From positions 1-57,928 of IMG/VR virus record IMGVR_UViG_3300045747_000102: DNA of 57,928 bases. One strand, given 5' to 3'. Below are positions 3,555 through 22,327 of the stretch, in pieces. The translations under genes were made by a program, and so were the position numbers. The stretch comes from a virus. Positions within the stretch are counted from its first letter, which is position 1. Every line of letters starts with the position of its first letter. The notes under the pieces are model-generated. The model did no database searches. It saw nothing but the letters and a program-made list of their open reading frames with translations, and was not told the DNA's origin.

Positions 3555-3555
3555 T

Positions 3556-5959: not shown

Positions 5960-6390
5960 AAAAACTTATCGTAGCTCTTGCCCTATTCACTTCCCTGGCT
6001 GTTTCGGCCGAATTGAAAGATTGGTCCGTACTCTCAGGCCCTCCTACAGTAAACAGTACACTAGCATATACGATTATACCTTCTACGGTTGAATCTGTGC
6101 AGACAAATACCGGTCCAGAAACTTGGATTGTAGTTGAAGTATTTCAAGTTGGTACTCCCACAGATATTGTACGGCGCAGAATTCGTACCACTGGTTGTAA
6201 TGTTGGTACAGGAAAAACTACCATGGCGAATATGGATGGTTCGTTCATTAAAGAAAATCCTGTATGGGACTGGGACAAAGGTGGAGACAAGATCTATGAT
6301 CAGATAGCAATTCAATCTTGTGTTGCAGAAATGGCCAAGAAGAAAGCACCAGAGATGAAGAAACAAAGCAACCAAGGACCAAATGTATGA
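5956..6390 (+). CDS. Exported protein with signal peptide, 144 aa
   Basis: A clear type I signal peptide, MKKLIVALALFTSLAVSA, is followed by a likely cleavage before ELKDW. The mature part is about 126 residues with two Cys that could form a disulphide and a Lys/Gln-rich tail. Periplasmic location is predicted. No family is recognised; superinfection exclusion or envelope-related roles are possible but unsupported. Confidence 0.75.
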   Translation: MKKLIVALALFTSLAVSAELKDWSVLSGPPTVNSTLAYTIIPSTVESVQTNTGPETWIVVEVFQVGTPTDIVRRRIRTTGCNVGTGKTTMANMDGSFIKENPVWDWDKGGDKIYDQIAIQSCVAEMAKKKAPEMKKQSNQGPNV

Positions 6391-6647
6391 CTGACTATTC
6401 AGCAACACCAGCAGATCAATTTGACTACTCAGAATTATCCATGAAGTCCGGAACTCATCTTCCCGGCAGCATTGATAATTCTCAAATTACCTTTTTGAAA
6501 CCACCAGAGCCTGTCGGTTCTTGGGTACTTTATCCAGGTTCGCCTTGGGGAACTGTGCAGTTCCAAATGTACAAACGACCTACAGATGAGCAAATCAAGA
6601 ACACAGAAGAACTGCTCGGCTGGGGTTGGGTAGAGGCGAAGAAATAA
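6387..6647 (+). CDS. Hypothetical protein, 86 aa
   Basis: The frame is open upstream, but the ATG at 6387 overlaps the preceding stop by 4 nt, as elsewhere in this operon. Trp- and Pro-rich, soluble. No family is recognised. The stop codon TAA is part of promoter P5. Confidence 0.65.
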   Translation: MTDYSATPADQFDYSELSMKSGTHLPGSIDNSQITFLKPPEPVGSWVLYPGSPWGTVQFQMYKRPTDEQIKNTEELLGWGWVEAKK

Positions 6648-6676
6648 TTTACATATATTCTATTACCTGATATAAT
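6648..6676 (+). promoter_or_regulatory. Early promoter P5
   Basis: TTTACA at 6648-6653, TATAAT at 6671-6676, spacer 17 nt. The predicted start at 6683 coincides with the ATG of the ligase gene. Confidence 0.8.
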
Positions 6677-6682
6677 CAATCT

Positions 6683-7981
6683 ATGAACATTACACAAATC
6701 CTCACAGAAATTGCCTCCGATCCGTCGACGAACGCAAAGAAGGCTATCATCGCTTCCAATGTCGGAAATGACCTCTTGAAGCAAGCATTCTTCTATGCAT
6801 ACAATCCGCGCTTCAACTTCTGGATCAAAGCAGATTCCCTGGCTACCAAGACTGGTAAAGCCAATGTCTCGGCCGAGACCTTCAAAGTTCTGGATCGCTT
6901 GGTAGCTCGCGAAGTCACCGGCAATGCAGCTCGTGAAGTTGTTACTGCTCATCTGAACACTCTGACTCAGGCAGACCAGCAACTCGTGATCAATATCATG
7001 AACCATGATCTGCGTTGTGGTGCTTCCGATACCCTCGCATCCAAAGTCTGGCCCAAGTTGGTCCCAGAATATCCCGTGATGCTGTGTGACAAATTCAACG
7101 AAAAGACTCGCAAGTATCTCGAGAAATTTGAGAACAAATGTGGTTACAATGTCTCACTGAAGGAAGATGGTGGCCGTGTTCTGATTACCGTGGAAGATGA
7201 CGGTAAAGTAGTTGCACGAAGCCGCAATGGTTCCGAGCTGAATGTATTCGGACTGTTTGATGCAGATTTCTCTGCTTGGCGCGGTATGGTGTTTGATGGT
7301 GAACTCATTATCAAGAATGCAGATGGTACTCCAGATCGTAAGTTCTCAAACGGCATTTACACCAAGCTGGTTCGCAATACTGCTACCAAAGATGAAGTAA
7401 ATAAGTTCACAATCGTTCTTTGGGATGTAATTTCACTTGAGCAATATCTTGGAGGTGTTGGTGAAGTAACCTATGCAGATCGTTGGGAGTCCTTGATCAA
7501 GGTTGCTCCTACTTGGTCCAAGCGCGTGAAGGTAGTCGAAGGCAAGAATGTCAAGACGATTGCCGAATGCCTTAAATTCTATGACGAAATGCGTGATCGC
7601 AAACAAGAAGGCGCAATTATCAAGGTGCTGGAATCTGTTTGGGAAGACAAACGCTCCAAGAACTCCGTGAAGCTGAAAGCCGAAGAATCTGCCGACCTGC
7701 TGTGTATCGGAACTGAACCGGGCCAAGGTAAATATGCTGGAATGATCGGTAATCTGATCTGCTCCACTTCTTGTGGTAAATTGGTGACTGGTGTCGGTAC
7801 CGGCCTGAAGGATGATGACCGCGCCAAAGACCCATCTGAATATGTCGGCAAGATCATCGAAGTCGGTTATAATGAAGTCATCTCGGCCAAAGGTCGCGAT
7901 ACAATGAGTTTGTTTCTCCCAGTGTATAAACAAGTTCGATTCGACAAATCTGTTGCAAATTCTCTAAAGGAACTCAAATGA
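6683..7981 (+). CDS. ATP-dependent DNA ligase
   Basis: A 432-residue ligase of the T4 gp30 type. The adenylation lysine is K160 in KEDGGR (motif I), followed by SRNGSE, FDGELII at 204-210 (motif III), EGAIIK near 309-314 (motif IV) and VKLKAEESADLL near 329-340 (motif V). It seals nicks in duplex DNA using ATP and should join Okazaki fragments with the polymerase, clamp and helicase encoded at 44781-54139. The ATG lies at the predicted transcription start of P5 and no Shine-Dalgarno sequence is present, so the mRNA is probably leaderless. The length is slightly below T4 ligase (487 aa). Confidence 0.95.
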   Translation: MNITQILTEIASDPSTNAKKAIIASNVGNDLLKQAFFYAYNPRFNFWIKADSLATKTGKANVSAETFKVLDRLVAREVTGNAAREVVTAHLNTLTQADQQLVINIMNHDLRCGASDTLASKVWPKLVPEYPVMLCDKFNEKTRKYLEKFENKCGYNVSLKEDGGRVLITVEDDGKVVARSRNGSELNVFGLFDADFSAWRGMVFDGELIIKNADGTPDRKFSNGIYTKLVRNTATKDEVNKFTIVLWDVISLEQYLGGVGEVTYADRWESLIKVAPTWSKRVKVVEGKNVKTIAECLKFYDEMRDRKQEGAIIKVLESVWEDKRSKNSVKLKAEESADLLCIGTEPGQGKYAGMIGNLICSTSCGKLVTGVGTGLKDDDRAKDPSEYVGKIIEVGYNEVISAKGRDTMSLFLPVYKQVRFDKSVANSLKELK

Positions 7982-8253
7982 AAGATATGTGGGGCAAAAC
8001 TGCCTACGTTGGTGTTACGTTTGTACATCCACTCCGTCAAAGTTCTTCTATTTGGATGAACCGATATGAAATTGTTTCTATCGATGAAGAAGCAGAAACA
8101 ATCAAGGCTCGCCAAATAAACCCCAAGAATTCTTTGACTTATAAAGTCTGGGATGGTTCTACCTACCGTGATATGACAGTCGAAGAACGCGCCAAGGTAC
8201 AATCAAAGACAGTGACAATTACTACATTCTCTAACCGTTCAACAATTTTATAA
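7978..8253 (+). CDS. Hypothetical protein, 91 aa
   Basis: ATGA-coupled to the ligase gene. Soluble, beta-rich, with no recognised family. Co-transcription with ligase does not by itself indicate a DNA role. Confidence 0.65.
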   Translation: MKDMWGKTAYVGVTFVHPLRQSSSIWMNRYEIVSIDEEAETIKARQINPKNSLTYKVWDGSTYRDMTVEERAKVQSKTVTITTFSNRSTIL

Positions 8254-8269
8254 ACAAGGAAAACTTAAA

Positions 8270-8554
8270 ATGACAAAATTCATATTTCAAACACAAGACG
8301 AAGACGAAGGCGCCATCACAACAATAGAATTCGAGTCCGATGTTTGGCTCGATGCATTCCCACACTTCTTGAATCTCATGCGGGCTTCTGGTTTTGCCAT
8401 TGATTTTGGTACTGCTTTGTATTCGCCAAAGGCATCCGAAAGCCTGTTCTCCGATCGCGACTTCATGCTTTTTGATTCCGATTTGAAACAAGTATGCAAA
8501 GGTGATTGTGAACACTCAAAAGAGTATTATTGTGGTGTCGGACGCAACAGTTAA
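8270..8554 (+). CDS. Hypothetical protein, 94 aa
   Basis: Starts after a good AAGGAAAA site. Acidic, with a C-terminal Cys group (CKGDCEHSKEYYCG) that might bind a metal. The tail overlaps the next frame by about 50 nt. No family is recognised. Confidence 0.65.
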   Translation: MTKFIFQTQDEDEGAITTIEFESDVWLDAFPHFLNLMRASGFAIDFGTALYSPKASESLFSDRDFMLFDSDLKQVCKGDCEHSKEYYCGVGRNS

Positions 8555-8774
8555 GTCGGCGGATGGTGTCACAGGGCACCTTCTGTATGACATGGATGGC
8601 ATGTGGTATTTCCGCGTTTACACAGATGGGGAATTTACCGACTATGCCATATTTCACACTGATCTCTGTGTGACGATTACCGATCCAGATGCATTCTTCT
8701 ATAAAAAGGATTCGGGTCTATACCACAGCATCATTGATCATTCACCCCAAACATTAGGAATTGAAACTAAATGA
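8502..8774 (+). CDS. Hypothetical protein, about 78-90 aa, start uncertain
   Basis: The frame runs to 8774 and the region after 8554 clearly codes (DGMWYFRVYTDGEFTDYAI). There is no ATG before that point. GTG codons at 8502, 8532 and 8535 are candidates, and all overlap the preceding gene. The later GTGs would reduce the overlap. It is ATGA-coupled to the next gene. No family is recognised. Confidence 0.55.
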   Translation: MIVNTQKSIIVVSDATVKSADGVTGHLLYDMDGMWYFRVYTDGEFTDYAIFHTDLCVTITDPDAFFYKKDSGLYHSIIDHSPQTLGIETK

Positions 8775-9172
8775 GTATCATCAAATCAGGTTATCGAATC
8801 ACTGTGACTTCATGGGAAAATGATGGTGACAATTATGCAACAGAATCAAAAGATGGATTGACTCACGATCGAGTTCGGTACCACTGTGATTTGCTACAAT
8901 TGATTTCTGGAAGCAATTGCAACGATAAAACTGTCTTTGGTAATATGTATGAACCAGATGATGATGAAATTGAGTTGTTTAGAGAAGCAGTCGATAAAGT
9001 CATTGCGACTCATGAAATTGCAGGAGACGACAGTTTTGATTCTGCTCTAGATATCATCAATGAATATACCGGCTCGGGTGATCAATATACTCGGGTTGCA
9101 GAAGAAATTGTGGTAGAATTCATACCAACACGAATTGATATTGAAGACGTAACAAAGGAATTTATTCAATGA
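8771..9172 (+). CDS. Acidic hypothetical protein, 133 aa
   Basis: Strongly acidic, soluble, no membrane segment, no recognised family. ATGA overlaps link it to the preceding gene and to thyX. Confidence 0.65.
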   Translation: MSIIKSGYRITVTSWENDGDNYATESKDGLTHDRVRYHCDLLQLISGSNCNDKTVFGNMYEPDDDEIELFREAVDKVIATHEIAGDDSFDSALDIINEYTGSGDQYTRVAEEIVVEFIPTRIDIEDVTKEFIQ

Positions 9173-10068
9173 CCGAAGGAAAATGTGGCATCTCTGCCAC
9201 TATTATTGCAGACTCGATTAATGCAGACGGAAACCGACTCACTACTTTTGAGTTGGTTTATCCGCGCTTCATCTTGGCTGAAGTGAATACTCATCGTATG
9301 CTTTCGAAGAATTCAGCTTCGTCACGAGCAATCCCAATTGCTAAGATGATGGAGCTGATTGACGAAGCTCCAGCTATGCCTGTGTTCTGGGGAAAGAATA
9401 AGCCCGGTATGTCGGCATCAGAAGAACTCACTGGTGACCAACTCACCGAAGCTAAAATCATCTGGGCTGAAGCAAAAGATACTGCTCTGGAATACGTCTC
9501 TCGTTTGGATGAAGCTCAGCTACATAAGCAAATTGCCAATCGTATCTCTGAGCCATGGCAGATGATGAAGTCTGTTGTATCTGGAACCGAATGGGCTAAT
9601 ATCCTGTGGCTTCGTAATCATGATGCTGCACAGCCAGAGTTCCATGAACTTGCTCGTTGTATCAAAGAAGAATTTGATGCATCTGTGCCTCAGTTTTTGG
9701 CTCCAGGTCAATGGCATCTTCCTTACATCAAATCAGTTCTGGTTGGAAATTTCGGCCAGGAATTTGAAAATAATGTAACGCTCGAACAAGCACAAAAGAT
9801 CTCTGCATCCTGTTGTGCCCAAGTATCTTATCGTAAGCTTGATGATTCTATTGAGAAGGCTTTGGATATTTACGAAAAGCTTGTTGGTATGGATCGTCAA
9901 CATGCGTCACCATTTGAGCACCTTGGTACTCCAATGAAACCTCAGACTGCTTGGTCAGTTCCGGACCGCGGTATTACACACCGTGATATTAAGTCCAAAT
10001 ACTGGTCGGCAAACTTCCAAGGATTTATCCAGTATCGTAAGTTACTTCCAAATGAGGCAGTATGGTAA
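9169..10068 (+). CDS. thyX: ThyX-like flavin-dependent thymidylate synthase (divergent)
   Basis: A 299-residue protein with FELVYPRFILAEVNTHRM and then SKNSASSRA near residues 27-54, the ThyX signature region, and HASPFEHLGTPM in the C-terminal third. ThyX methylates dUMP to dTMP using methylene-tetrahydrofolate and FAD/NADPH. Compared with the canonical RHRxxSxNExSxRY, this copy reads THRMLSKNSASSRA: the His, second Arg, Ser, Asn, Ser and Arg are kept, while the first Arg, the Glu and the Tyr are replaced. Either it is a divergent ThyX subfamily or its substrate has shifted. It is ATGA-coupled to its upstream gene. Confidence 0.85.
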   Translation: MTEGKCGISATIIADSINADGNRLTTFELVYPRFILAEVNTHRMLSKNSASSRAIPIAKMMELIDEAPAMPVFWGKNKPGMSASEELTGDQLTEAKIIWAEAKDTALEYVSRLDEAQLHKQIANRISEPWQMMKSVVSGTEWANILWLRNHDAAQPEFHELARCIKEEFDASVPQFLAPGQWHLPYIKSVLVGNFGQEFENNVTLEQAQKISASCCAQVSYRKLDDSIEKALDIYEKLVGMDRQHASPFEHLGTPMKPQTAWSVPDRGITHRDIKSKYWSANFQGFIQYRKLLPNEAVW

Positions 10069-10355
10069 CAATGATTTGTGATAAATGTGGCTGGGCACAT
10101 TTTGGTGTTACTCGAGATTATGCAGTAAATAGTATCGATGATTTCCTTAAATATTACCATACATTATCTGCAACCGAGAAAACAACCTTTTATGGTGCAG
10201 AACCAGTTACATTTGGCTCTATGTATCGAAAGTATTTGAAGTGTTTCCAATGTGGCGGTCATTATAATGATTTCCACGCAAAAACTGAGGCTGACCGAGT
10301 GCCAATTGGAGTTACGATGCAACCGATTGTTTCTACTCACCAAGACGCTGCTTAG
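10062..10355 (+). CDS. Zinc-ribbon hypothetical protein, 97 aa
   Basis: Two CxxC pairs, CDKC at residues 6-9 and CFQC near 61-64, form a plausible zinc ribbon. The rest is unrecognised. It overlaps the end of thyX by 7 nt and is the last gene of the P5 transcript. Confidence 0.65.
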   Translation: MVTMICDKCGWAHFGVTRDYAVNSIDDFLKYYHTLSATEKTTFYGAEPVTFGSMYRKYLKCFQCGGHYNDFHAKTEADRVPIGVTMQPIVSTHQDAA

Positions 10356-10360
10356 ATCGC

Positions 10361-10420
10361 CGTAGAACGGTCGTTTAGTGGCTTGGGTATAGTAACATAC
10401 CAACTCGGCTTGTAGACGAC
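10361..10420 (+). other. Structured intergenic element (nested hairpins)
   Basis: Between the zinc-ribbon gene and P6 is a gene-free stretch with nested inverted repeats. GTCGTTTA at 10370-10377 pairs with TAGACGAC at 10413-10420 (one G-U). Inside it TTGGGTAT at 10383-10390 pairs with ATACCAA at 10397-10403 with one bulge. A small hairpin CCGT/ACGG precedes it at about 10360-10370. No U-run follows, so it is a poor rho-independent terminator; it may be an mRNA 3'-end structure or a small RNA. Confidence 0.5.
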
Positions 10421-10430
10421 TTAAAAATAA

Positions 10431-10459
10431 TTTACACATATTCTCACACATGGTATAAT
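10431..10459 (+). promoter_or_regulatory. Early promoter P6
   Basis: TTTACA at 10431-10436, TATAAT at 10454-10459, spacer 17 nt. The leader AACCATCTTCTGAAA is shared with P9 at 15247-15261. Confidence 0.85.
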
Positions 10460-10489
10460 GAACCATCTTCTGAAAACAAAGGAATTCTC

Positions 10490-10570
10490 ATGGACTACAT
10501 TGACATTGCTGTGATTGCCGTAACTCTGGTCTACATTGTTGCCAAACTCCGCTTCCCTGAGACATTCTGA
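10490..10570 (+). CDS. Membrane micropeptide, 26 aa
   Basis: MDYIDIAVIAVTLVYIVAKL is a single transmembrane helix with a short basic tail. It is the first open frame after P6 and has AAAGGAA upstream, so it is likely to be translated. Function unknown. Confidence 0.5.
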   Translation: MDYIDIAVIAVTLVYIVAKLRFPETF

Positions 10571-10586
10571 ATCCAAAGGAAAAATC

Positions 10587-11054
10587 ATGCTTATTACTCA
10601 TAAAGCTCGTTGCATTTGGCCCAAGAGCCGTGGTGTTTCTACTCAACCCGGTGAAAAGTCTGACTGCACAGTTCGCGCAGCTGTGAATGCTACTGGTCTT
10701 CCGTACCAAAAGGTTCACGATGTATTGAAGTTCTATGGTCGTCAAGATGGCCAAGGTGCTGAACAACGTACATGGGCTCGTGCATACCGTTCTCTTGGTC
10801 TCAAGCTGATCGGAATATTTGGTAAGTCTAAAACTGCCATGTCAGAATGGAATATGCTGGAACGTGAATATGCCCACCCAGTTGAAAACTATGCCGGTAC
10901 TTCCATCAAGAACTTTGTAAAGTCTCACCCACGTGGAACCTACGTTTGTCTGACACACAATCATGCATTTGCAATTGTGAGAGGTGAATTGGTTGACTCG
11001 ACTCCATTGCTCTTGAACACTCGCATTACCGTAGCTTATGAGGTCGTATCATGA
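10587..11054 (+). CDS. Papain-like (C39-like) cysteine hydrolase family protein, 155 aa
   Basis: The frame is open upstream, but the ATG at 10587 has AAAGGAAAA at the right distance. SDCTVRAAVNATGLPY (Cys near residue 27), the GR-x-G-x-G-like loop, and THNHAFAIVRGELVDS (His then Asp near 124-136) follow the Cys-His-Asp order of papain-like folds seen in phage C39-like proteins. It could be a peptidase or a non-catalytic relative; target unknown. ATGA-coupled to the next gene. Confidence 0.65.
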   Translation: MLITHKARCIWPKSRGVSTQPGEKSDCTVRAAVNATGLPYQKVHDVLKFYGRQDGQGAEQRTWARAYRSLGLKLIGIFGKSKTAMSEWNMLEREYAHPVENYAGTSIKNFVKSHPRGTYVCLTHNHAFAIVRGELVDSTPLLLNTRITVAYEVVS

Positions 11055-11287
11055 AAACATTACTAGAAACCCTGAACACCGAAGCTCCTGTGATTGTGCA
11101 ATTTCGCACAAAGAAGAACAAACTTCGGACAATGGCTTGTACCCGGGATTTGAAATCAATCCCAACTGAACAACATGCTGGAATTAATTCTCCAGTCCTC
11201 AATCAACCTGGAATTCTCTGTGTCTATGATTTGCTGATCAAAGAGTGGAGAGCTTTCCGAATCGACTCGGTAACCTCATATGACTAA
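11051..11287 (+). CDS. Sm-like/WYL_2-type small protein A, 78 aa
   Basis: The pattern VQFRTKKNKLRTMACTRDL followed by ILCVYD and WRAFRIDSV matches the short phage family with a predicted SH3-like barrel (WYL_2, DUF2693). A paralog lies at 16539-16805 with VKFTKVSDGSVRTMACTKNF and WRSFRKDSV. The fold suggests RNA or protein binding; function unknown. Overlaps both neighbours. Confidence 0.7.
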   Translation: MKTLLETLNTEAPVIVQFRTKKNKLRTMACTRDLKSIPTEQHAGINSPVLNQPGILCVYDLLIKEWRAFRIDSVTSYD

Positions 11288-11753
11288 AGTAACCAAAATT
11301 TTGCTAGACATGGATGGCGTGAAGTGTAACTTCATGAAATCATTCGACGCGATTCAAATGCCGAATTCGTACAAGAAGTTCCGACTCTCTGTGCTGCATT
11401 TGCGGATCTTTGAAACTCTAGAGTGGATGCCAAACGGCCGAGCTCTTGTAGAATTCCTTGATACTCTAGATATTCCAATCGAGTTGCTTACGTCACGGGG
11501 ATCTCGTGATGATATTCTCGGGAACGAAGCGATACGTCAAAAGAATGTATGGCTTGATAAGCATGGCATTCAGTATCCACGGAACTTTGCTCGGACTGGA
11601 CTTGAGAAGGTTAAGCATTCTCTCCCGGGAACATTGTTGATCGACGATACACCAAAAGTAGTTGAATCGTTCCGTACTGGGCAAGGTAAAGCAATTCTGT
11701 ATGAAGATTCAAAGTTCGAAGAAATGAAAGAACTAATTAAGGCACATCTATGA
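11280..11753 (+). CDS. HAD-superfamily 5'-nucleotidase-like phosphatase, 157 aa
   Basis: HAD motifs in order: DMDGV at residues 10-14 (motif I, nucleophile D10 and acid D12), LLTSRG (motif II), a Lys in GLEKVKH (motif III), and LLIDDTPKVVESF (motif IV). Size and layout match 5'(3')-deoxyribonucleotidases, which dephosphorylate dNMPs. It is coupled to a MazG-type pyrophosphohydrolase, so the pair may turn dNTP to dNMP to nucleoside. The substrate is inferred. Confidence 0.8.
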   Translation: MTKVTKILLDMDGVKCNFMKSFDAIQMPNSYKKFRLSVLHLRIFETLEWMPNGRALVEFLDTLDIPIELLTSRGSRDDILGNEAIRQKNVWLDKHGIQYPRNFARTGLEKVKHSLPGTLLIDDTPKVVESFRTGQGKAILYEDSKFEEMKELIKAHL

Positions 11754-12052
11754 AAACAGTAACTGTACTGGGTAAGATTAAACCCGAAGAAGCTGAAATC
11801 TGCAATATTCTTTTGGAAGAATGCGCAGAAACAATTCAAGCAGTCTCAAAGGTGTTTCGCTTCGGTTGGAATTCTTGCCACCCAGATAAGCCGAATTACA
11901 CCAACAAGGAACATCTGACCGAAGAACTCGGTGACCTGGTCTGTATGATCAAAATCCTGTGTGACAAGGGAATTGTCTCGATGGAAGATATTTCTCGGTA
12001 CGCAGAGTTCAAGCAGAATAAACTCAAGATCTATTCGGATATTAAGCTATGA
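11750..12052 (+). CDS. MazG-like nucleotide pyrophosphohydrolase, 100 aa
   Basis: EECAE at residues 23-27 and EELGD at 58-62 form the EExxE ... ExxD metal-binding signature of the all-alpha NTP pyrophosphohydrolases (MazG, dUTPase-2, MazG-like). It hydrolyses NTP or dNTP to NMP and PPi; phage members act on nucleotide pools or alarmones. It is ATGA-coupled to the HAD phosphatase before it and the gene after it. Confidence 0.8.
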   Translation: MKTVTVLGKIKPEEAEICNILLEECAETIQAVSKVFRFGWNSCHPDKPNYTNKEHLTEELGDLVCMIKILCDKGIVSMEDISRYAEFKQNKLKIYSDIKL

Positions 12053-12378
12053 GATGTAAGCAAGGTGATCTGGCATACATTATCAAGGCACTACGACCCG
12101 AGAATGTTGGGAAAGTAGTTCAATGTGTCGAGTGCATTGGTTTCCATGAACGGTTCCAAGCATTCGGACTACATGGTGAGACTTGGGTTTCACCAGATTC
12201 AGATTACCTTTGGGTGATTAAGAATTCAGGTTCGATCACAACTCTGTATGGTCCTGCAAAGGAAGCGGTGATCCCAGATTCTTGGCTTCGGCCAATTAAG
12301 GCAGATCCCTCAGATACTCTTGATGAAGATATTGCAGAGGATTCTGGTAAAGAATTAGTTTATAATGATGAAAGATGA
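12049..12378 (+). CDS. Conserved phage-type hypothetical protein, 109 aa
   Basis: The opening CKQGDLAYIIKALRPENVGK and the later VIPDSWLRPIK form a layout I know from small hypothetical proteins of many phages, probably a small barrel. No function is known. An acidic tail follows. Coupled on both sides. Confidence 0.65.
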   Translation: MRCKQGDLAYIIKALRPENVGKVVQCVECIGFHERFQAFGLHGETWVSPDSDYLWVIKNSGSITTLYGPAKEAVIPDSWLRPIKADPSDTLDEDIAEDSGKELVYNDER

Positions 12379-12992
12379 AAATGGCAGTTTATAAAGATAT
12401 CCCAGAGAATACATTTGGTCCAACTCCAGCAGCAATGTATCTGTGTCGCCTCTTGAATGAAGGCAAGAAAGAACTTGAACGACGCTCGATGGGTCGTCGA
12501 ATTACCGGGACCTCTGCTCAGATTAATCAGCTGATCCTTAGCTATGAATCCGGTTGCCTAGGACCAAAGACCCTAGCGAATTGTCTGCGCCTGATGCGTG
12601 AAGAAATCTCTACTGGAAATTTCGGAATCACAATTGAAGAACAACTCTGCCGCAATGTGCAAATCGGCTATATCAAGCAAGGTATTCGTCTTGCTACCGT
12701 GGGTCGTAAGGCTGAACGAGTGATGTCATCCCCTGTGGCTAAGTCATCAAAAGTATTGTCTGAACAGGGTGATGATGGAATTTATGATGAATACTTCTTC
12801 CGTGATTCAGAAACCGGCACACAATATAAGGCGGGTGAAGGTTATCAATATATAGATGAATTCGGTGGAAGTTGGACCGAAGTGAATCGTCTTAAATCAG
12901 AAGAAGTGAATCACATCACTCCAGAACTATTGCACGAACGTTCGGTTCGTCGGTGTATTCGGCTCAAAAAGCCTCATGTTTCTCAACTGTAA
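12375..12992 (+). CDS. Hypothetical protein, 205 aa
   Basis: N-terminal half is helical and basic; the C-terminal half is acidic with Tyr-rich DEYFFRDSETGTQYKAG. No family is recognised. It overlaps the previous gene by 4 nt and ends 13 nt before the SPFH gene. Confidence 0.65.
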   Translation: MKMAVYKDIPENTFGPTPAAMYLCRLLNEGKKELERRSMGRRITGTSAQINQLILSYESGCLGPKTLANCLRLMREEISTGNFGITIEEQLCRNVQIGYIKQGIRLATVGRKAERVMSSPVAKSSKVLSEQGDDGIYDEYFFRDSETGTQYKAGEGYQYIDEFGGSWTEVNRLKSEEVNHITPELLHERSVRRCIRLKKPHVSQL

Positions 12993-13005
12993 AGGAAAAT
13001 TCTAA

Positions 13006-13866
13006 ATGTTTATTTTGATTATTGGTGCTCTCGTTGCGATCGCACTGTTTGTGGTTCTTCACTTTGTTCTGAAGACATCTTCTGGATTGGCAATTGCCGG
13101 TGCCCTGGCCATATTTCTCTCTGCCTTCATTTTTGATTGCGTAACCATCATTCCAGCAGGTCACGTTGGTGTACAAGCTACATTCGGACAGGTCAATTTT
13201 GAACCTCTGGCCGAGGGTTTACACTTTGTAAATCCACTCAGCACGATTACAAATGTTGATGTACGATTGGAAAAGGCCCAACTCACTGGGAAATCTGCCG
13301 GTACAAAAGACCTACAGGTCGTACACACAGATATTACTGTGAACTACCGACTAGATCCAGCGAAGGCTCCTGTGATTCTTAAGGACTATGGTCTGAACGT
13401 GTCCGATAAGATTCTCGATCCATCTGTGAATGAGGCATTCAAATCTGTTACTGGTCATTACACCTCAGAGGAATTGATCACCAAGCGTGATCTGGTATCC
13501 GCGGAAATCCTACAACACGTAAAGGATAAGGTTCATGGGTATGATATTGTCGTAAGTTCAATCAGCCTGGTTAACTTTGCGTTCTCCCCAGAGTATCAAA
13601 AGGCTATTGAAGCCAAGGTTATCTCGGTACAACAAACTGCTAAGGCAGAGCAAGACCTACGACGAATTGAAGTAGAGGCTAAGTCCCGGATTGCTCAGGC
13701 AGAAGGTGAAGCTAAGGCTATTGCGATTCAGGCAGCTGCTATCCAATCAAATGGTGGTGCTCAATATGTCCAACTGCAGGCCCTGGAAAAATGGAATGGA
13801 GTACTTCCCACCATGATGTCTGGTGCTGTTCCATTCATTAATGTAACTCCACCCCCAGCAAAATGA
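13006..13866 (+). CDS. SPFH/prohibitin-family membrane protein, 286 aa
   Basis: Two N-terminal hydrophobic helices (residues about 2-22 and 27-47) are followed by IIPAGHVGVQATFGQV, a band-7 domain, and a long helical region with VQQTAKAEQDLRRIEVEAK and RIAQAEGEAKAIAIQAAA, the hallmark coiled coil of prohibitin/HflC-type proteins. Such proteins form large rings in the membrane, and in bacteria HflK/HflC regulate FtsH. Phage copies may modulate host membrane proteolysis; that is inference. It starts after AAAGGAAAA and is ATGA-coupled to the next gene. Confidence 0.85.
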   Translation: MFILIIGALVAIALFVVLHFVLKTSSGLAIAGALAIFLSAFIFDCVTIIPAGHVGVQATFGQVNFEPLAEGLHFVNPLSTITNVDVRLEKAQLTGKSAGTKDLQVVHTDITVNYRLDPAKAPVILKDYGLNVSDKILDPSVNEAFKSVTGHYTSEELITKRDLVSAEILQHVKDKVHGYDIVVSSISLVNFAFSPEYQKAIEAKVISVQQTAKAEQDLRRIEVEAKSRIAQAEGEAKAIAIQAAAIQSNGGAQYVQLQALEKWNGVLPTMMSGAVPFINVTPPPAK

Positions 13867-14294
13867 TTACCCGAGCCCAAGCCAAAGAATTAGTCATCAA
13901 GAAGAATTCTGCGGCGCTGATTAAAATCATTCGGGCATCAAAGGCAGCTATCTTCGCACAAGGAAGAGGCTGCTTTATTGATGAATACGGAGTTGATTAC
14001 GTTGATCCCAAGAGAAACATCCGGGATGCAATTGGTGTGCTGGTACCATTTTACTCAAATGGAAAACTGAAGCGGCATTATGGGTTGATCTCCGAAGAGG
14101 CACAGAAGCCTATTGTCCGTGTGATTCAGAAAACATACCATGTTGAGATCAATATTCCAAATGAGTACAATAGGTTTGTGAGAACTTTGCAGGAACTGCA
14201 ATACATCCATGACGAATGCTTTGATGATAACAAACTGGAAATGTCTAAGTTCTTAGACCGATGCCAGAAACTTGAAGAAAGAATTGTATGCTAG
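13863..14294 (+). CDS. Hypothetical protein, 143 aa
   Basis: Mixed charged, helical C-terminal half, no membrane segment. No family is recognised. Overlaps the SPFH gene by 4 nt and the next by 7 nt. Confidence 0.65.
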   Translation: MITRAQAKELVIKKNSAALIKIIRASKAAIFAQGRGCFIDEYGVDYVDPKRNIRDAIGVLVPFYSNGKLKRHYGLISEEAQKPIVRVIQKTYHVEINIPNEYNRFVRTLQELQYIHDECFDDNKLEMSKFLDRCQKLEERIVC

Positions 14295-14461
14295 AACGTG
14301 ATGAAAACGGCCGACTAAATCCAATCGAAGAAATCAATGGACTTTGGTATTTTTGGAACGAAACTTGGGCATTTTCCCATGGTCCTTACAAAGACAAAAG
14401 AACTGCTGAATCGGCAATGGAAGCATACTGCTTGACGTTAGACGGACCGATTGAGCCATAA
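14288..14461 (+). CDS. Hypothetical protein, 57 aa
   Basis: Starts within the end of the preceding gene and ends with the TAA embedded in promoter P7. The product contains INGLWYFWNETWAFSHGPYK, an aromatic pattern similar to small phage proteins that display a short beta hairpin. Function unknown. Confidence 0.6.
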   Translation: MLERDENGRLNPIEEINGLWYFWNETWAFSHGPYKDKRTAESAMEAYCLTLDGPIEP

Positions 14462-14490
14462 TTTACACATATTCCTCACTGTAGTATAAT
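14462..14490 (+). promoter_or_regulatory. Early promoter P7
   Basis: TTTACA at 14462-14467, TATAAT at 14485-14490, spacer 17 nt. The downstream leader is nearly identical to that of P4. Confidence 0.85.
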
Positions 14491-14519
14491 AGACCCATAC
14501 CGAAACACAAAGGAAAAAT

Positions 14520-14762
14520 ATGACTAAAGATACCGTTGAACTGCAAATCCAAGAAATGGAAGCTGAAATGGCTAAGGTTGCTGTGGCTGCACAAGTTGCG
14601 TTACTACACCAGGCTCGGCTGAGTCTCAAGAAGGCTCGTGTAGACATTAAAGCTGCTCTGGGCGACACGGATGTCGGTCATCAATACCTTTCGGATCTGG
14701 CTGACATGATTGAAGAACTCGATCACGACTGTGCCGATCTGTGCTATAACGGAGGAATTTGA
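14520..14762 (+). CDS. Coiled-coil hypothetical protein, 80 aa
   Basis: Heptad-rich helical protein (VELQIQEMEAEMAKV onward) with an acidic C-terminus. No family is recognised. AAAGGAAAA precedes the ATG. Confidence 0.65.
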   Translation: MTKDTVELQIQEMEAEMAKVAVAAQVALLHQARLSLKKARVDIKAALGDTDVGHQYLSDLADMIEELDHDCADLCYNGGI

Positions 14763-14764
14763 TC

Positions 14765-14929
14765 ATGAACAAAATCTATTATTACGCCAATGTGCTGATC
14801 GGGGTGCCTTTGCTTTTCATTGTGGCATTCAGTATGAATATGTGGAAGCTGACCAAACAGGCATTTCGTTGGTCTGTTGCTGAGACAAAAAGCGCATACC
14901 AAGAAAATCGTCGGCACTACAAGATGTAA
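14765..14929 (+). CDS. Small single-pass membrane protein, 54 aa
   Basis: The hydrophobic stretch YYANVLIGVPLLFIVAFSM is one transmembrane helix, followed by a basic amphipathic tail. GGAGGAATT lies upstream of the ATG. Last gene before P8, whose TAA supplies its stop. Confidence 0.6.
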   Translation: MNKIYYYANVLIGVPLLFIVAFSMNMWKLTKQAFRWSVAETKSAYQENRRHYKM

Positions 14930-14958
14930 TTTACACATATTCCTCGTTGTAGTATAAT
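14930..14958 (+). promoter_or_regulatory. Early promoter P8
   Basis: TTTACA at 14930-14935, TATAAT at 14953-14958, spacer 17 nt. Confidence 0.85.
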
Positions 14959-14983
14959 AGACTCATACCGCAAAGGAATTGAA

Positions 14984-15217
14984 ATGTTACCGACTATACT
15001 TGCAACAGTCCGTGTGTATAATCAAAACTATACGCCCATGAACGGCCAGGACTTTCAAATTTCAGAAGAACGAACCGTGGAAGTACTTCAATTGAATCTG
15101 AATTCTTCTGGTATGCGTGTTCGCTTTAATGATTCTTACCAAGGCAAAACTAAAGTTGTGACTCAGGATATAGGTATTGATGCATTCTTTGCACAGTATG
15201 CAATTGTCCGTCTTTAA
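14984..15217 (+). CDS. Hypothetical protein, 77 aa
   Basis: Single gene between P8 and P9 with AAAGGAATT upstream of the ATG. Beta-rich, soluble. No family is recognised. Confidence 0.65.
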   Translation: MLPTILATVRVYNQNYTPMNGQDFQISEERTVEVLQLNLNSSGMRVRFNDSYQGKTKVVTQDIGIDAFFAQYAIVRL

Positions 15218-15246
15218 TTTACACATATTCCTCATTGTAGTATAAT
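15218..15246 (+). promoter_or_regulatory. Early promoter P9
   Basis: TTTACA at 15218-15223, TATAAT at 15241-15246, spacer 17 nt. Its leader resembles that of P6. Confidence 0.85.
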
Positions 15247-15275
15247 AAACCATCTTCTGAAACAAAGGAAAAATC

Positions 15276-15818
15276 ATGGTCTCCAAGGAACAAATCATCT
15301 CTCTGCTTGCAACCAACGACAAGGCTGTTGCCCGTGCCTTGGTTGCCCTGAATGACCGTCAGACTGCAGACGAACAGCAAAACCAATCTACTCGCCTGGA
15401 CAACGGTATGGGTTTCAAACCCTGCCATGCTCGCATGGGTACCTCGATGGCTGAATTCTTCCAAAAGAACGGTTACCTCTCTCCCAAGCAAATTGCCTAC
15501 TGGCGCAAGGTTGATGCCAACGGTTCCATGCGAATCGGTTGCTACTGGAAACAGTTGATGGAAGTGGCTGCTGCTAAGGAAGCCACAAAGGCTCAGGTTC
15601 TGCCCAAGTTCCTGGTTCCCGGTGGTTTTCGGACCAAACTGATGAACGAAAAGGTTGAACTCGAAGAAACCCTGGCTGCATACAACGAAGGTGCTTTCGG
15701 TGATGTCTCTGATGAAGCATATGATCGTATCTTCGGCCGTATGGAACAAATCTCTGAGGCACTGGAAGAACTTGATCGGTGCGAATACAAGATGCGCCGT
15801 GACGGAATGATGGTATGA
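15276..15818 (+). CDS. Conserved phage-type hypothetical protein, 180 aa
   Basis: First gene after P9. The central motif GTSMAEFFQKNGYLSPKQIAYW resembles a module I know from many phage proteins and from the edge of some helicase proteins. It seems to be a small helical domain whose function is not established. The C-terminal 60 residues form a coiled coil. ATGA-coupled to the next gene. Confidence 0.65.
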   Translation: MVSKEQIISLLATNDKAVARALVALNDRQTADEQQNQSTRLDNGMGFKPCHARMGTSMAEFFQKNGYLSPKQIAYWRKVDANGSMRIGCYWKQLMEVAAAKEATKAQVLPKFLVPGGFRTKLMNEKVELEETLAAYNEGAFGDVSDEAYDRIFGRMEQISEALEELDRCEYKMRRDGMMV

Positions 15819-16962: not shown

Positions 16963-17079
16963 CAAATACCATCTTATGATGCATATCTGAAGGTCGAACC
17001 CTGTAATAAGGTGATGATGCCGGAACTCTTGTGTGGATAACGGAAACGTAGGAGCGGAGATAAGATGGGATTTTGTTAA
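16961..17079 (+). ncRNA. Unclassified structured RNA closed by a long stem
   Basis: A 166-nt gap between genes holds a long inverted repeat. CCATCTTAT at 16969-16977 pairs with ATAAGATGG at 17061-17069 without error, and flanking AACAAATA pairs with TATTTTGTT-like sequence beyond one mismatch and one bulge, giving about 16 pairs. Inside are shorter helices: GCAT at 16981-16984 with ATGC at 17016-17019, CCG...CTC at 17020-17028 with GAG...CGG at 17052-17058, and ACG/CGT around a GAAA loop near 17040-17049. The fold is multi-branched, like a riboswitch or small catalytic RNA. I checked it by eye against tRNA, hammerhead, purine, PreQ1 and glnA patterns without a match. It could act in cis on the gene at 17129 or as a free RNA. 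Confidence 0.6.
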
Positions 17080-17128: not shown

Positions 17129-17371
17129 ATGAAAAAGAAACGCAATTATGAGAATGGGATAGACTATCCAAACGACTTTACTCAGTCCGATTTTTTGGAC
17201 TCTGTAAGTTGTTCGGAGCTCATTATGGATACTGTTCCAATGGCTCTGATGTCTATGTTTGAAGATCCAAATGCGGCACCTGTGTCAGAATCGAAATTTG
17301 CTGCACTTGAACCAGCCGAAAATATTTGGGACACACCGAATATAACTCGGCATGATAAGCTGAATAAATAG
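17129..17371 (+). CDS. Hypothetical protein, 80 aa
   Basis: Preceded by GGAG at the right distance. A hairpin CAGCA/TGCTG lies in its leader at about 17092-17105. The protein has a basic start and an acidic rest with no recognised family. Its last codons contain the late-type motif AATAAATA, and the tmRNA gene starts directly behind it. Confidence 0.6.
   Translation: MKKKRNYENGIDYPNDFTQSDFLDSVSCSELIMDTVPMALMSMFEDPNAAPVSESKFAALEPAENIWDTPNITRHDKLNK
17363..17370 (+). promoter_or_regulatory. Late-type promoter in front of tmRNA
   Basis: AATAAATA on the + strand, one base from the T4 late box TATAAATA. A start 6-7 nt downstream (about 17376) would coincide with the beginning of the tmRNA acceptor piece. 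Confidence 0.5.
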
Positions 17372-17442
17372 AAAAGAATGGTAGTAAACTGATCGTAAGA
17401 AACGATTGCAACACCCGGGTGCAATTCCCGGCAGCTCCACCA

Positions 17443-17554
17443 AAAGTATTTTGAAAAATTGATTCCGTAGGACTTGCAAGGAAACGCGGAAAAGATTGAG
17501 CACCGTGCTCTGTAGTCATTCACGGCGAGTTACGACTACCAAAATACTTTTGAT
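17443..17554 (+). other. tmRNA intervening segment (to be excised)
   Basis: This segment separates CCA from the 5' G of the coding piece. AAAAGTATTTTG at 17442-17453 and CAAAATACTTTT at 17540-17551 are perfect inverted repeats that prolong the acceptor stem to about 20 pairs in the precursor. Inside, TTCCG (17463-17467) pairs with CGGAA (17487-17491), GAGC (17498-17501) with GCTC (17507-17510), and GTAGTC (17512-17517) with GACTAC (17534-17539). Host RNase P and 3' processing enzymes would be expected to remove it. Confidence 0.85.
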
Positions 17555-17643
17555 GGGGCTGACTTAGGATCGACTGCGAAAGAAGTAATATTGTATTGGC
17601 TACTCGTCACGGATAGACGTAAAAAGCAAAAACGCAATTAAAT

Positions 17644-17676
17644 GCAAACGAAGAAAGATTCGCTCTGGTCGCATGA
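17644..17676 (+). other. tmRNA tag reading frame
   Basis: GCA AAC GAA GAA AGA TTC GCT CTG GTC GCA TGA reads ANEERFALVA and stop. Start with Ala-Asn, an acidic centre and the hydrophobic ending ALVA are typical of proteolysis tags recognised by ClpXP. Confidence 0.92.
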
Positions 17677-17725
17677 TCAAGCTGAGGACTAGAAATTGTT
17701 CCTTATCATCCAAACAACAAACTAG

Positions 17726-17752
17726 ATGGGGCCTTCGGGCTCCATTTTAGTT
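17726..17752 (+). terminator. Terminator behind tmRNA, probably bidirectional
   Basis: ATGGGGCC and GGCTCCAT form an 8-bp stem with one G-U pair around a UUCG loop, followed by TTTTAGTTT. On the other strand the same stem is followed by the T-rich CTAGTTTGTTGTTT, so it can also end the terminase transcript that converges here. Confidence 0.85.
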
Positions 17753-19390
17753 TCAGTCATAGCTTACATCTGATGTAAGCCAATTCTGTAATGGATCGCG
17801 CGAAGGACCAGATGAATGAATCATATTGAAGTCCATTGTAAGATCTTCCATGCCATCTGAAAATGCTCCAAACGGAGTCATATTTTCCATGATGTAGGCT
17901 TCGTTCTTCTGTGCCAATAGGTGCCGAATATTCACATTGGTTATATCGGCAAACATAGATTGTTTTGATAACCATCCGAAGAGCCACAAGCAAGTAGTCA
18001 AGTCATCATTGATATTCGTATCTGATGCCTGATATGAAACACCCTTTTGCTCAAATACATTCAGCTCTTGGATGATGTCAAAAGAATTAAGAATAAGTAC
18101 TTCACCTTCTACCAATTCCTTTAGCACAGAACAGCCAATGGACTTCACTCGTTTCGTAGTTCGTACACCAGGATAACCATTGCCCTCGGTTACATTTTCT
18201 TTCACTGTGAAATAGACGTTTGCATACTCAAATTCGTAAAATATAGTATTAGCAATTTCCTGTCCGGCATCGTTAATTTCAATCAGACAATATGCGTCAT
18301 TATACTGCTTAACGGTGTTAATGATCATGAAAGGATACGTCGTCAGTCCAATGGTGTTGTCTTTGAACGTAGCAGCGACTCGGTACGGTGTAGTAGTGAT
18401 GTCGAATATAACGAATGCGGAAAAGTCTAAATGCTGTCCCCGCGATGTATCTACTGTGCAAGCATATGAATGACCCTTTTGTGGCTCTTCATAGATCTTC
18501 AATCCCCCTTTGATAAACTTCGGATCAAAAAATGGTATTGTAGCCATTTTCTCACCAGAGATCAGAGTCTTTGAAGAACCGTGGAAGGTACAGTCAATTT
18601 CCTGTGCTGCCTTTACTGGTCCAAGATTTTTAACCTGTTCATCATACCAAGCCTGATCGCGGTCTGGGTGAGCTGACCAAGGAATGTTGAGCGGCACAAA
18701 TCCGTTTCGCCCAGCATTAGCCTCTACCCAGATCTTGTAGAACATATTCATACCCTTTGGTGTAGAGGATATGAAGATCTTTGTTTCTTTACCAGAAGAA
18801 AGTACTGGGAACACAGAAGTCATGAATTCTTCTGCTATGTTGTTTGGGATAAATGCAATTTCGTCGACATATACGTGGGTACAAGATTGACCCCGGATAG
18901 CATTAGGTGACGTAGCAGCCGTAAAGATCTTTGAGTTGTTGTCTAGTTTGATAGAACCTTTGTTCCACTCAACTACACCCTGCTGAATCCAAAACGGTAG
19001 ATTTTCATATGAGAACTGAATACGAGAAAGAATTTCCCGTGCCATTGCTGCCTTATTGGCAAGGATAGCAATGTTCTTGTCTGAATTGAACAGGATTACC
19101 CAAAGGAAATAAGCTGCGGTAGTAATCGTCTTACCCATCTGCCGAGCAGTAAGCACCACCGCTTTTCTGTTCTGGTGGTAGGTAAGAATGATGTCTTCTT
19201 GAAACGGATAGAGGCCGAACGGCACAGTTCCGCGGTCAACGTTAATGACCTTGACATACTTCTTGATGAAGTAAACTGGATCTTTAGAACACTTTATCCA
19301 CTCGTCTACCTGCTCTGAGGTAAATGAGATTTGGACACCAGAAGCCTTTAGGTTAAGTTGTCCATTATAGCATTCTGGTCTAGTAGCCAT
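17753..19390 (-). CDS. Terminase large subunit (T4 gp17-like)
   Basis: A 545-residue DNA-packaging motor protein. Walker A is TARQMGKT at residues 81-88, Walker B HVYVDE at 172-177, and the coupling motif SSTPKG at 209-213. The nuclease domain begins near 300 with the catalytic D314 in TVDTSRGQHLD, continues with EINDAGQ, and ends with the DTNINDD acidic patch. It translocates and cuts concatemeric DNA at the portal. I see no small subunit or portal gene in this window. It is the last gene of the minus-strand structural cluster and converges on the tmRNA. Confidence 0.95.
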   Translation of the reverse strand: MATRPECYNGQLNLKASGVQISFTSEQVDEWIKCSKDPVYFIKKYVKVINVDRGTVPFGLYPFQEDIILTYHQNRKAVVLTARQMGKTITTAAYFLWVILFNSDKNIAILANKAAMAREILSRIQFSYENLPFWIQQGVVEWNKGSIKLDNNSKIFTAATSPNAIRGQSCTHVYVDEIAFIPNNIAEEFMTSVFPVLSSGKETKIFISSTPKGMNMFYKIWVEANAGRNGFVPLNIPWSAHPDRDQAWYDEQVKNLGPVKAAQEIDCTFHGSSKTLISGEKMATIPFFDPKFIKGGLKIYEEPQKGHSYACTVDTSRGQHLDFSAFVIFDITTTPYRVAATFKDNTIGLTTYPFMIINTVKQYNDAYCLIEINDAGQEIANTIFYEFEYANVYFTVKENVTEGNGYPGVRTTKRVKSIGCSVLKELVEGEVLILNSFDIIQELNVFEQKGVSYQASDTNINDDLTTCLWLFGWLSKQSMFADITNVNIRHLLAQKNEAYIMENMTPFGAFSDGMEDLTMDFNMIHSSGPSRDPLQNWLTSDVSYD

Positions 19391-20105: not shown

Positions 20106-20396
20106 TTAACCGCCTGCAAAAACATTTCTAGATCCGGCTGCAGACACATCGCCGCAATCTATATCATCCCCAATTCTGTGAATTGGCTTTCCTTCTATTG
20201 ACACAGTGGAAGAACCAGTAGAGGCTTTCCCATCATGTGAAGATGTGCCTAACGAATGAGTTGGATAATGTGCTCCAACCACCGTGGCTAGTATACTATT
20301 TATGGACACGGTAGACTGTCCTGCTGTATCCGCGGCTCTGGGTTCATAACCATGACCTGCCGATTTGTCTACACCTACCCGGGTACATGCTGGCAT
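20106..20396 (-). CDS. PAAR-domain tail spike tip protein, 96 aa
   Basis: Ends with VSIEGKPIHRIGDDIDCGD and SAAGSRNVFAGG, the zinc-binding PAAR repeat that caps the central spike in contractile tails (T4 gp5.4 analogue). This argues for a contractile-tail phage. It overlaps the next structural gene by 1 nt. Confidence 0.85.
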   Translation of the reverse strand: MPACTRVGVDKSAGHGYEPRAADTAGQSTVSINSILATVVGAHYPTHSLGTSSHDGKASTGSSTVSIEGKPIHRIGDDIDCGDVSAAGSRNVFAGG

Positions 20397-22327
20397 TATG
20401 CTAATTCCTTCTTAACGGCAGCCTTCAGTGCTAAGTTGGAAGCCGTATAGTTATAGTGGACAACGAGTTCATTCACCTGAGTCTTGGTCTCTAGAAGCAG
20501 TTCATCATAGTAATTTACTACAACATAGAAACTCTTGTTCTGGACGGCAGGAGCTGTATATCGTGTGATTCCAAAGTATTTATCGGGAAGATCTTTGAAT
20601 CTACTCACGGTTTGGACATTTTGATCCATATCGATGTATTCTATAGTCCGTTCAAAGACGTCATCAGCCTGACCTGTAGCATACACAGAATTTCCTACGG
20701 CATATAGATCCACACCTGGTAGTGGTTTTGAGAATGCATAAGCCGTGACTGGATATGGAGCAACCCAAGAAGTGGTGAATGGAACGAATTCCGTGGCTTC
20801 CTGAGTAGTGCCTGTAATTTCTGGGAAGTCACCAATAACATGCATGACCCCAGTCTGTACTTGAGACTGAGAACCAGACAGAGCAACTTGACGTTCTGGA
20901 TATACTCCACCAGGTCTTACAATAGACTGAACACCAGTAATTGGCGTACCTGTAATCTGACCACCGGTTGTTCCAATTGTACCAGCAAGAGCTGTAATTG
21001 TATTAGAACCTAGCAGTGCAGATTCGGTGTTGAATGAAGCAGGAGAACCAGGTGTAACTGTGGACTGAGCACCAGTCAGAGCAACCGAGATCTGTTTAAG
21101 AACATTGCCGAGAGTAGCAGAAGAACTTACACCAGTAAGAGCAAATATTCTTGATGCGGTTAGCGAACCAGCAGAAGAATTGATCGTAGCTGATGTCAGT
21201 GGTATGAATGCTCCCTGAAGTCCAGTTACAATTCCAGTAGATACAGTAGACTGAGAACCAGTAAGAGCAATATTGACTATCTGTGCAGGTACTTCAATAC
21301 CGGTAGATACAGTAGACTGAACACCGGTCAGTGCATAGGTATTAGTCTTGGCAATAGAACCAGAAGAAACTGTGGACTGAACACCAGTAAGTGCTGATGA
21401 TGCTACCGCAGCTGCTGTAAGAGTTCCTGCCGTATTGGTAGTTTGTTTACCTGTAAGTGCTGTAGAAGTTACCTGAGCACCAGTTAGAGTTCCAGCTGAT
21501 TCGGTAGACTGAACACCAGTAAGAGCAGTAGAAGTTACCTGGGCTGTGGTCAGAGTTCCAGCAGATTCTACTGATTGTACACCAGTGAGTGCCTTACTGA
21601 CCGTCTGAGCATCTGTTACAGAAGAAACAGATACTGTAGACTGAACACCAGTGAGTGCTTTAGATACCCCTTGAGCAGAAGTTAGAGTTCCAGATGTAAC
21701 TGTGGACTGAATGCCATTCAGTGCAGTAGAGGTTACCTGAGCAGAAGTAAGAATTCCAACCGAAGCTGTAGATTGGAAACCAGTTAGGGCTGTGGTAGTT
21801 GTCTGTGTTGTTCCGACAGATCCGGTAGCCGCGGTAGATTGGAAACCAGTTAGTGCTCGGGTGACTGCCTGAGAACCAGTAAGAGTTCCTGTGCCTGCTG
21901 TGGACTGAACACCAGTAATAGCAAAAGTTATTACCTGAGAACCGGTTAGAGTACCAGCAGATTCAGTAGATTGGGCACCAGTAAGTGCTCGGGAAACGGT
22001 CTGTGTCCCGGTTAGAGTTCCGGTAGATGCTGCTGATTGGAAACCAGTCAGAACTGTGGAAGTTGCCTGGCCAGTACTAAGAGTTCCAGTAGAAACTGTA
22101 ACTTGTTTACCGGTAAGTACAGAAGTTTGAGCTGCGCCACCAGTAATGGTGCCTACTTGAGCTGTAGATTGGAAACCAGTAAGCGCTTTAGATACTGCTT
22201 GAGTACCAGTAAGAGTACCTACCTGAGCTGTAGATTGGAAACCCGATAGATTGACTGTAATGTCGCCTGATACGACATTTAGCCCACCTAGTGAGAACGA
22301 ACCTAATGAGCCGGAACCAAAAGACAT
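20396..22327 (-). CDS. LTG-QST repeat tail protein, 643 aa
   Basis: From residue about 25 to 450 the protein is made of about 18 copies of a 23-24 residue repeat, ALTGxQSTxSxGTLTxxQ. The C-terminal 180 residues are non-repetitive (GDFPEITGTTQEATEFVPF onwards) and aromatic. Such Ser/Thr/Gly repeats are known from phage tail-fibre shafts. It is likely a fibre or baseplate-attached shaft, with the C-terminal domain used for assembly. Confidence 0.75.
   Translation of the reverse strand: MSFGSGSLGSFSLGGLNVVSGDITVNLSGFQSTAQVGTLTGTQAVSKALTGFQSTAQVGTITGGAAQTSVLTGKQVTVSTGTLSTGQATSTVLTGFQSAASTGTLTGTQTVSRALTGAQSTESAGTLTGSQVITFAITGVQSTAGTGTLTGSQAVTRALTGFQSTAATGSVGTTQTTTTALTGFQSTASVGILTSAQVTSTALNGIQSTVTSGTLTSAQGVSKALTGVQSTVSVSSVTDAQTVSKALTGVQSVESAGTLTTAQVTSTALTGVQSTESAGTLTGAQVTSTALTGKQTTNTAGTLTAAAVASSALTGVQSTVSSGSIAKTNTYALTGVQSTVSTGIEVPAQIVNIALTGSQSTVSTGIVTGLQGAFIPLTSATINSSAGSLTASRIFALTGVSSSATLGNVLKQISVALTGAQSTVTPGSPASFNTESALLGSNTITALAGTIGTTGGQITGTPITGVQSIVRPGGVYPERQVALSGSQSQVQTGVMHVIGDFPEITGTTQEATEFVPFTTSWVAPYPVTAYAFSKPLPGVDLYAVGNSVYATGQADDVFERTIEYIDMDQNVQTVSRFKDLPDKYFGITRYTAPAVQNKSFYVVVNYYDELLLETKTQVNELVVHYNYTASNLALKAAVKKELA

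Follow-up and report, generated by a model that had tools for sequence, protein, structure and literature searches.

A conserved, circularly permuted two-piece tmRNA gene, probably functional, in a T4-like phage

Introduction

The 57,928-base virus record IMGVR_UViG_3300045747_000102, analysed over its whole length and called the window here, raises the question of whether a phage carries its own circularly permuted, two-piece tmRNA gene (ssrA) and, if so, where the gene came from and what it may do. A reading of the letters alone had proposed such a gene, taking tmRNAs of phages to be one-piece, and had concluded that it must have been captured from a two-piece host or permuted anew. The assumption did not hold. 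A two-piece tmRNA was reported in 2022 in the myophage Melnitz, and a tmRNA was found in 402 of 18,146 phage genomes, with 53 two-piece forms among 133 unique ones (PMC9004378). Permuted tmRNAs also proved frequent in IMG/VR and present in cultured T4-like and other phages. Two-piece tmRNAs are already known and common in phages; the kind of gene is not new.

Results

Phage context of the gene

The window represents part of the genome of a T4-like myophage. PHROGs matches included the terminase large subunit, DNA polymerase gp43, a DnaB-type helicase, UvsX, the clamp loader, and the sliding clamp, together with a RegA-type translation repressor, DNA ligase, thymidylate synthase, Hsp20, and an HMC-glucosyltransferase-like protein. 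T4-like terminase, gp43, gp41, UvsX, and clamp loader on the same contig bear out the claim that the gene is carried by a phage. The nearest named relatives were T4-like cyanophages (38-51% for polymerase and terminase). The tmRNA gene is the final rightward gene ahead of a convergent late-type block. A TTTACA-N17-TATAAT element occurs in nine plus-strand copies between 1206 and 15215, the nearest to the gene at 15215, and these copies can be read as putative early promoters; close upstream of the tmRNA gene itself, no promoter stronger than chance was found. The element belongs to a dispersed repeat, TAATTTACACATATTCCT-N-GTATAATARACC, with nine copies in the window (1206-15278, e.g. 4340-4403, 14459-14522, and 15215-15278) ahead of rightward genes and many copies also in a 192-kb relative (G002).

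Two further features were seen in the window. A fold of about 100 nt (16968-17070), closed by CCATCTTAT/ATAAGATGG, follows a small ORF; at the same place, the relative L589 has a different closing stem (16 bp), and the counterpart in the relative L002 closes with TCTCACC/GGTGAGA and has a T-arm-like end. This sRNA-like, conserved fold had no match in Rfam and may represent a structured RNA. In addition, tandem 66-base (22-codon) repeats occupy 20850-22250 within a leftward ORF (20396-22327), whose product is probably a structural or fibre protein.

Identification of the two-piece tmRNA gene

Infernal searches (cmscan) with the Rfam models for permuted and beta-type tmRNA identified the gene over the full length of both. 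RF04321 (tmRNA_permuted) matched 17380-17676 with 99.5 bits (cut-off 47; E 3e-18 over the window), aligned end to end at model positions 1-213 of 213, and RF01850 (beta_tmRNA) matched 17329-17749 with 90.7 bits (cut-off 84), the whole model being covered. The acceptor piece lies upstream of the coding piece, and each half is inside the RF04321 match above the cut-off; the proposal of a circularly permuted two-piece tmRNA was upheld. The features are collected in Table 1. The CCA (17440-17442) and G1 (17555) agree with the coordinates of the sequence-only reading, as do the perfectly pairing acceptor strands, GGGGCTG and CAGCTCC, with their G3-U70 pair, and the tag frame, which reads ANEERFALVA-stop.

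Table 1. Features of the tmRNA locus in the window
Feature	Position	Strand	Basis
Acceptor piece, encoded first and forming the 3' half of the mature molecule: H2 strands, T-arm, acceptor 3' strand, A73, CCA	17380-17442	+	RF04321 and RF01850 alignments; sequence
T-arm: stem CCGGG/CCCGG, loop TGCAATT, G for U at position 55	17415-17431	+	alignments; G55 also in L203 (TGCAAGT)
Acceptor stem 3' strand CAGCTCC (17432-17438), discriminator A, encoded CCA (17440-17442)	17432-17442	+	pairs 7/7 with 17555-17561, G3-U70
Intervening segment of 112 nt, predicted to be excised	17443-17554	+	ends pair: AAAGTATTTTG (17443-17453) with CAAAATACTTT (17540-17550); then TGAT (17551-17554) before G1
Coding piece (5' half of the mature molecule) to tag stop: acceptor 5' strand, D-loop ACTTAGGAT-CGAC, H2, hairpin 17605-17619, tag	17555-17676	+	Rfam alignments; sequence
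D-loop ACTTAGGAT, then CGAC	17562-17574	+	sequence
Tag reading frame GCA...TGA, ANEERFALVA-stop	17644-17676	+	sequence; L203 counterpart ANDEKFALAA
Coding piece 3' part, conserved with L203 (AAGCTGAGGAYTAGAAATTGTTCCTTATCATCCAAACAA), matching the beta_tmRNA 3' hairpin region	17677-17725	+	RF01850 alignment; comparison with L203
Intrinsic terminator ATGGGGCC-TTCG-GGCTCCAT-TTTTA, separating the tmRNA gene from the convergent terminase gene	17726-17749	+	sequence; L589 also has a hairpin here
Terminase large subunit (T4 gp17-like), convergent neighbour	17753-19390	-	PHROGs match; phage context

The alanine-type tRNA-like domain is complete, with a 7-bp acceptor stem, G3-U70, A73, CCA, and a 5-bp T-stem, and a resume codon and a tag frame with a hydrophobic (L/V/A)AA-type tail and stop are present, although the window tag ends in LVA. 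Two features had been overlooked in the earlier reading. The intervening segment forms an 11-bp helix (shuffles, 3.8) that prolongs the acceptor stem, and the T-loop has G instead of U at position 55, so that the canonical UUCRANY loop is absent and the window loop is UGCAAUU. ARAGORN reported no gene in the window, nor did it find the gene of the 192-kb relative; a standard annotation pipeline would therefore miss the window gene.

Conservation at the same locus in a relative

Two close contigs, L002 (90% identical) and L003 (91%), were found via the terminase. The 192-kb record of L003 (G002), which has 25 tRNA genes, carries a tmRNA gene (L203) in the same syntenic place with 103 bits for RF04321 (over the cut-off) and 87.8 bits for RF01850. 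Its DNA identity to the window gene was 71.8% over 362 nt, against 82.6% for the terminase DNA. Side-by-side reading of the two genes revealed six two-sided compensatory changes, two in each of three helices. From the window to L203, H2 next to the T-arm changes from UUGCA/UGCGA to UUGUG/CACGA, distal H2 from GGUAG/CUACU to GGGUG/CACCU, and the intervening-segment helix from AAAGUAUUU/AAAUACUUU to AAAGUACUC/GAGUACUUU (the UAUUU/AAAUA region becoming UACUC/GAGUA); the intervening helix covaries with the L203 strands AAAGTACTC/GAGTACTTT. The tag differs from ANDEKFALAA of L203 by changes that are synonymous or conservative except for A to V.

The alignments and this comparison establish the permuted order, complete halves, covarying pairing between the halves, and a tag frame whose protein sequence is conserved in the 192-kb relative. 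Judged from these sequences, compensatory helices and a kept tag are marks of a maintained two-piece tmRNA. Since a relative has the same layout with compensatory changes in three helices, a chance resemblance or a decayed copy is very unlikely, and we consider the gene to be real, intact, and conserved.

The locus beside the terminase gene is nevertheless a variable site. The fragmentary record L002 has no tmRNA at this place; it has instead a fold ending in a T-arm-like structure and, after it, a reverse-strand ORF (about 6700-7400) that looks like a GIY-YIG-type endonuclease. The lack of the gene at this place in L002 indicates that the tmRNA is dispensable in some close relatives.

The D-loop/T-loop pair 18-55

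We asked how position 55 of the T-loop relates to the D-loop in this and other tmRNAs. In a motif scan of 27 permuted genes, U55 was accompanied by GG in 18/18 and G55 by AG in 9/9 (D-loop register before NNT-CGAC). A scan of G55 genes found AG in 70/83; the strict register held GG in 12/83, and these had AG one base upstream. GG was present in 75 of 77 U55 genes and AG in all 36 permuted bacterial G55 genes, as well as in one-piece G55 genes (31). The coupling of G55 with A18 was seen across phage and bacterial tmRNAs, both permuted and one-piece, and includes the window (17420-17426 and 17562-17574). On independent tree pairs the association was not significant (p 0.125): there were four starred pairs, and all or almost all of them agreed in direction.

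Positions 18 and 55 are a known D-loop/T-loop contact in tRNA; the coupling accordingly looks like a replacement of G18-U55 by A18-G55. Two other explanations of G55 were rejected. It is hardly decay or error, as relatives have it too and the D-loop A18 accompanies it, paired as in other tmRNAs. It is also not phage-specific, being present in Caulobacterales, other Alphaproteobacteria, and several one-piece lineages; found in many true tmRNAs including that of Caulobacter, it does not define a family. The T-loop G of Caulobacter was noted in 2005 (PMC1168896). In the literature covered, which was partial, no statement of the paired 18/55 change was found, and a search for literature on a tRNA 'purine trap' gave no match.

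Precursor features

In 23/27 phage genes the acceptor stem was continued into the intervening segment by a directly adjoining helix of 8 bp or more, and in 17/27 UGAU preceded G1; both counts come from the motif scan, those of the U55 scan being biased by its own pattern (T at -1). Neither the long helix nor UGAU was found in the 36 sampled bacterial G55 genes, which have short segments, and UGAU was present in three of eight permuted beta/gamma bacterial genes. A(-2)U(-1) is the leader preferred by RNase P, its optimum, and pairing of the leader with RCCA slows the enzyme (PMC9433436). The window leader has U(-4)/G(-3) besides A(-2)U(-1), so that partial pairing with ACCA is possible; because such pairing is inhibitory (PMC9433436), this counts against ready processing.

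Permuted tmRNAs in other phages

A blastn search of the tmRNA gene against 50,697 phage records gave no match, nor did an exact scan for the acceptor/intervening junction. Relatives were sought via terminase, tag motifs, and covariance models, as the gene DNA is too diverged for blastn. RF04321 exceeded its cut-off in 39 of 50 IMG/VR records that had been retrieved by the tag motif AAATGCAAACGA-N6-12-TTCGC, and the permuted genes of Marzo and Yut3 (T4-like, Stenotrophomonas) and of Pseudomonas phage SM1 passed both RF04321 and RF01850.

The window gene shares with the RF04321 and RF01850 families the order of acceptor piece, intervening segment, and coding piece, the TLD, the resume codon context, and the 10-aa tag, and with the beta type (RF01850) also the 3' hairpin and terminator. 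It differs in being a phage gene, in having G55/A18 for U55/G18, in the LVA end of its tag, and in its 112-nt intervening segment, compared with 4-42 nt in sampled permuted beta bacteria. Melnitz and other marine phages likewise have a permuted tmRNA in a myophage with no recognised integration; however, the gene of Melnitz, a Methylophilales phage, was reported as alphaproteobacterial-related and linked to a glutamine riboswitch (PMC9004378), whereas the window gene is of the beta type and no riboswitch was matched by Rfam in the window. Menderavirus Marzo (MZ326868) and Yut3 (PV130724; host Stenotrophomonas maltophilia) are T4-like phages with a permuted beta-type tmRNA (RF04321 119 bits, RF01850 95-97) and UGAU before G1, but their gene lies inside a tRNA cluster and has U55/G18, the tag ANDDSYTVRIAA, and a 57-nt intervening segment. 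Pseudomonas phage SM1 (KU245542, Samunavirus) shares the beta-type permuted form and a 112-nt intervening segment; it is not T4-like and has the tag ANDTSFDVRLAA and U55. The SM1 gene (KU245542.1, within 53267-54933; RF04321 118.6 bits) is unannotated in the published genome.

Origin of the gene

In sampled bacteria the beta type was rare: RF01850 exceeded its cut-off in 2/60 genomes of one betaproteobacterial order and in 6/61 genomes of one family, and it was found in one of 274 genomes of the class Gammaproteobacteria (E at most 1e-20, strict filters). Among Alphaproteobacteria, 52/58 carried a permuted gene scoring above the cut-off of RF04321. In one rare permuted tmRNA from a Gammaproteobacteria-class genome (L666, genome G246), the intervening segment is 4 nt long and the loop pair is GGC/A18. 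The bacteria S. maltophilia and P. aeruginosa carry a one-piece tmRNA of their own.

A tree of 70 tmRNAs paired the window with L203 (100/100) within 21 all-phage rows (97/91); the alphas formed one clade (99/97), and the permuted Burkholderiales were placed elsewhere. When the D- and T-loop columns were removed, the window and L203 still paired with 100/100, and no wider starred set held the pair. As to betaproteobacterial descent, the window tmRNA groups with phage sequences, and its deeper placement is weakly supported by the tree.

Recent acquisition from a betaproteobacterial host carrying a two-piece tmRNA, e.g. one of the small-genome Burkholderiales such as the G158 family, would fit the findings that beta_tmRNA is the best older Rfam model and that the window tag resembles beta tags such as ANDERFALAA. 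Nevertheless, we consider it very improbable, as the window and L203 pair at 100/100 among phage sequences (97/91, a support that the wider phage set loses without the loop columns) and apart from the beta permuted rows, and the betas have U55/G18 where the window has G55/A18. Placement of the gene and its phage relative inside the phage tmRNAs means that neither a recent capture from the present host nor a fresh permutation, one or the other of which had been held necessary, is needed. Inheritance within phages appears to be the better reading of its origin. More tentatively, the beta-type permuted tmRNA may be a mainly phage-borne lineage, with a long intervening helix and a UGAU leader, among phages whose hosts mostly have one-piece tmRNA; such a lineage may have seeded the permuted genes found here and there in Beta- and Gammaproteobacteria, with the D-/T-loop pair switching several times between G18-U55 and A18-G55.

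Discussion

Here, we propose that the phage carries at this locus a permuted ssrA gene of betaproteobacterial type, very probably functional. Starting from the observed layout, pairing, tag conservation, and synteny, we infer the following steps from transcription onward. A transcript from the rightward phage operon(s) would span, by read-through, 17380 to the terminator at 17726-17749, and the intervening segment of the precursor would form a hairpin that stacks on the acceptor stem. Cleavage by RNase P would fall 5' of G17555, behind a leader ending in A(-2)U(-1), and the CCA at 17442 would be freed by host tRNA 3'-processing. After charging by host AlaRS via G3-U70, host SmpB and EF-Tu would deliver the tmRNA to stalled ribosomes, where ANEERFALVA would be added to stalled chains and the tagged chains degraded. 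Such a gene probably gives the phage added capacity for ribosome rescue in infected cells while host messages are broken down. The tag end LVA rather than LAA counts against this explanation.

No match to PF01668 (SmpB) was found in the window, the 192-kb relative, or 16 other tmRNA phages, while 10 of 14 control genomes gave one. As neither the window nor the 192-kb relative yielded an SmpB gene, the phage tmRNA would supplement, not replace, the host system. The same finding would suit a processed, stable RNA that does not tag, its tRNA-like part acting as a decoy on SmpB or ribosomes and damping host rescue. A phage-borne tmRNA gene with only the tRNA-like domain, that of mycobacteriophage DS6A, has been discussed as such a decoy, and a gene of this kind is reported to inhibit tmRNA in E. 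coli (PMC4131195, PMC11915505). This role seems most doubtful for the window gene, because L203 preserves the tag frame, the resume codon context, and the 3' structure, with mostly synonymous or conservative changes, and these features would be of no use to a decoy. An integration remnant, i.e. a host ssrA gene or fragment at an attachment site, is scarcely credible even though ssrA is a frequent integration site of temperate phages (PMC11915505), as synteny and completeness refute it in practice: the gene is whole, lies between a rightward early operon and a T4-type terminase in a context of the lytic T4-like type, occupies the same place in the 192-kb relative, and groups with phage sequences in the tree.

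The window tmRNA is best regarded as a conserved phage gene that probably works and would need host SmpB, and, considering the 25 tRNA genes of the relative, it is probably part of a translation kit. It adds a clear and conserved example of a ribosome-rescue RNA encoded by a T4-like phage. The survey and the genes missed by ARAGORN show that permuted tmRNAs in phages are much commoner than annotations indicate, and the switch from G18/U55 to A18/G55 would provide a ready-made natural experiment on how the D-loop and T-loop pack in tmRNA.
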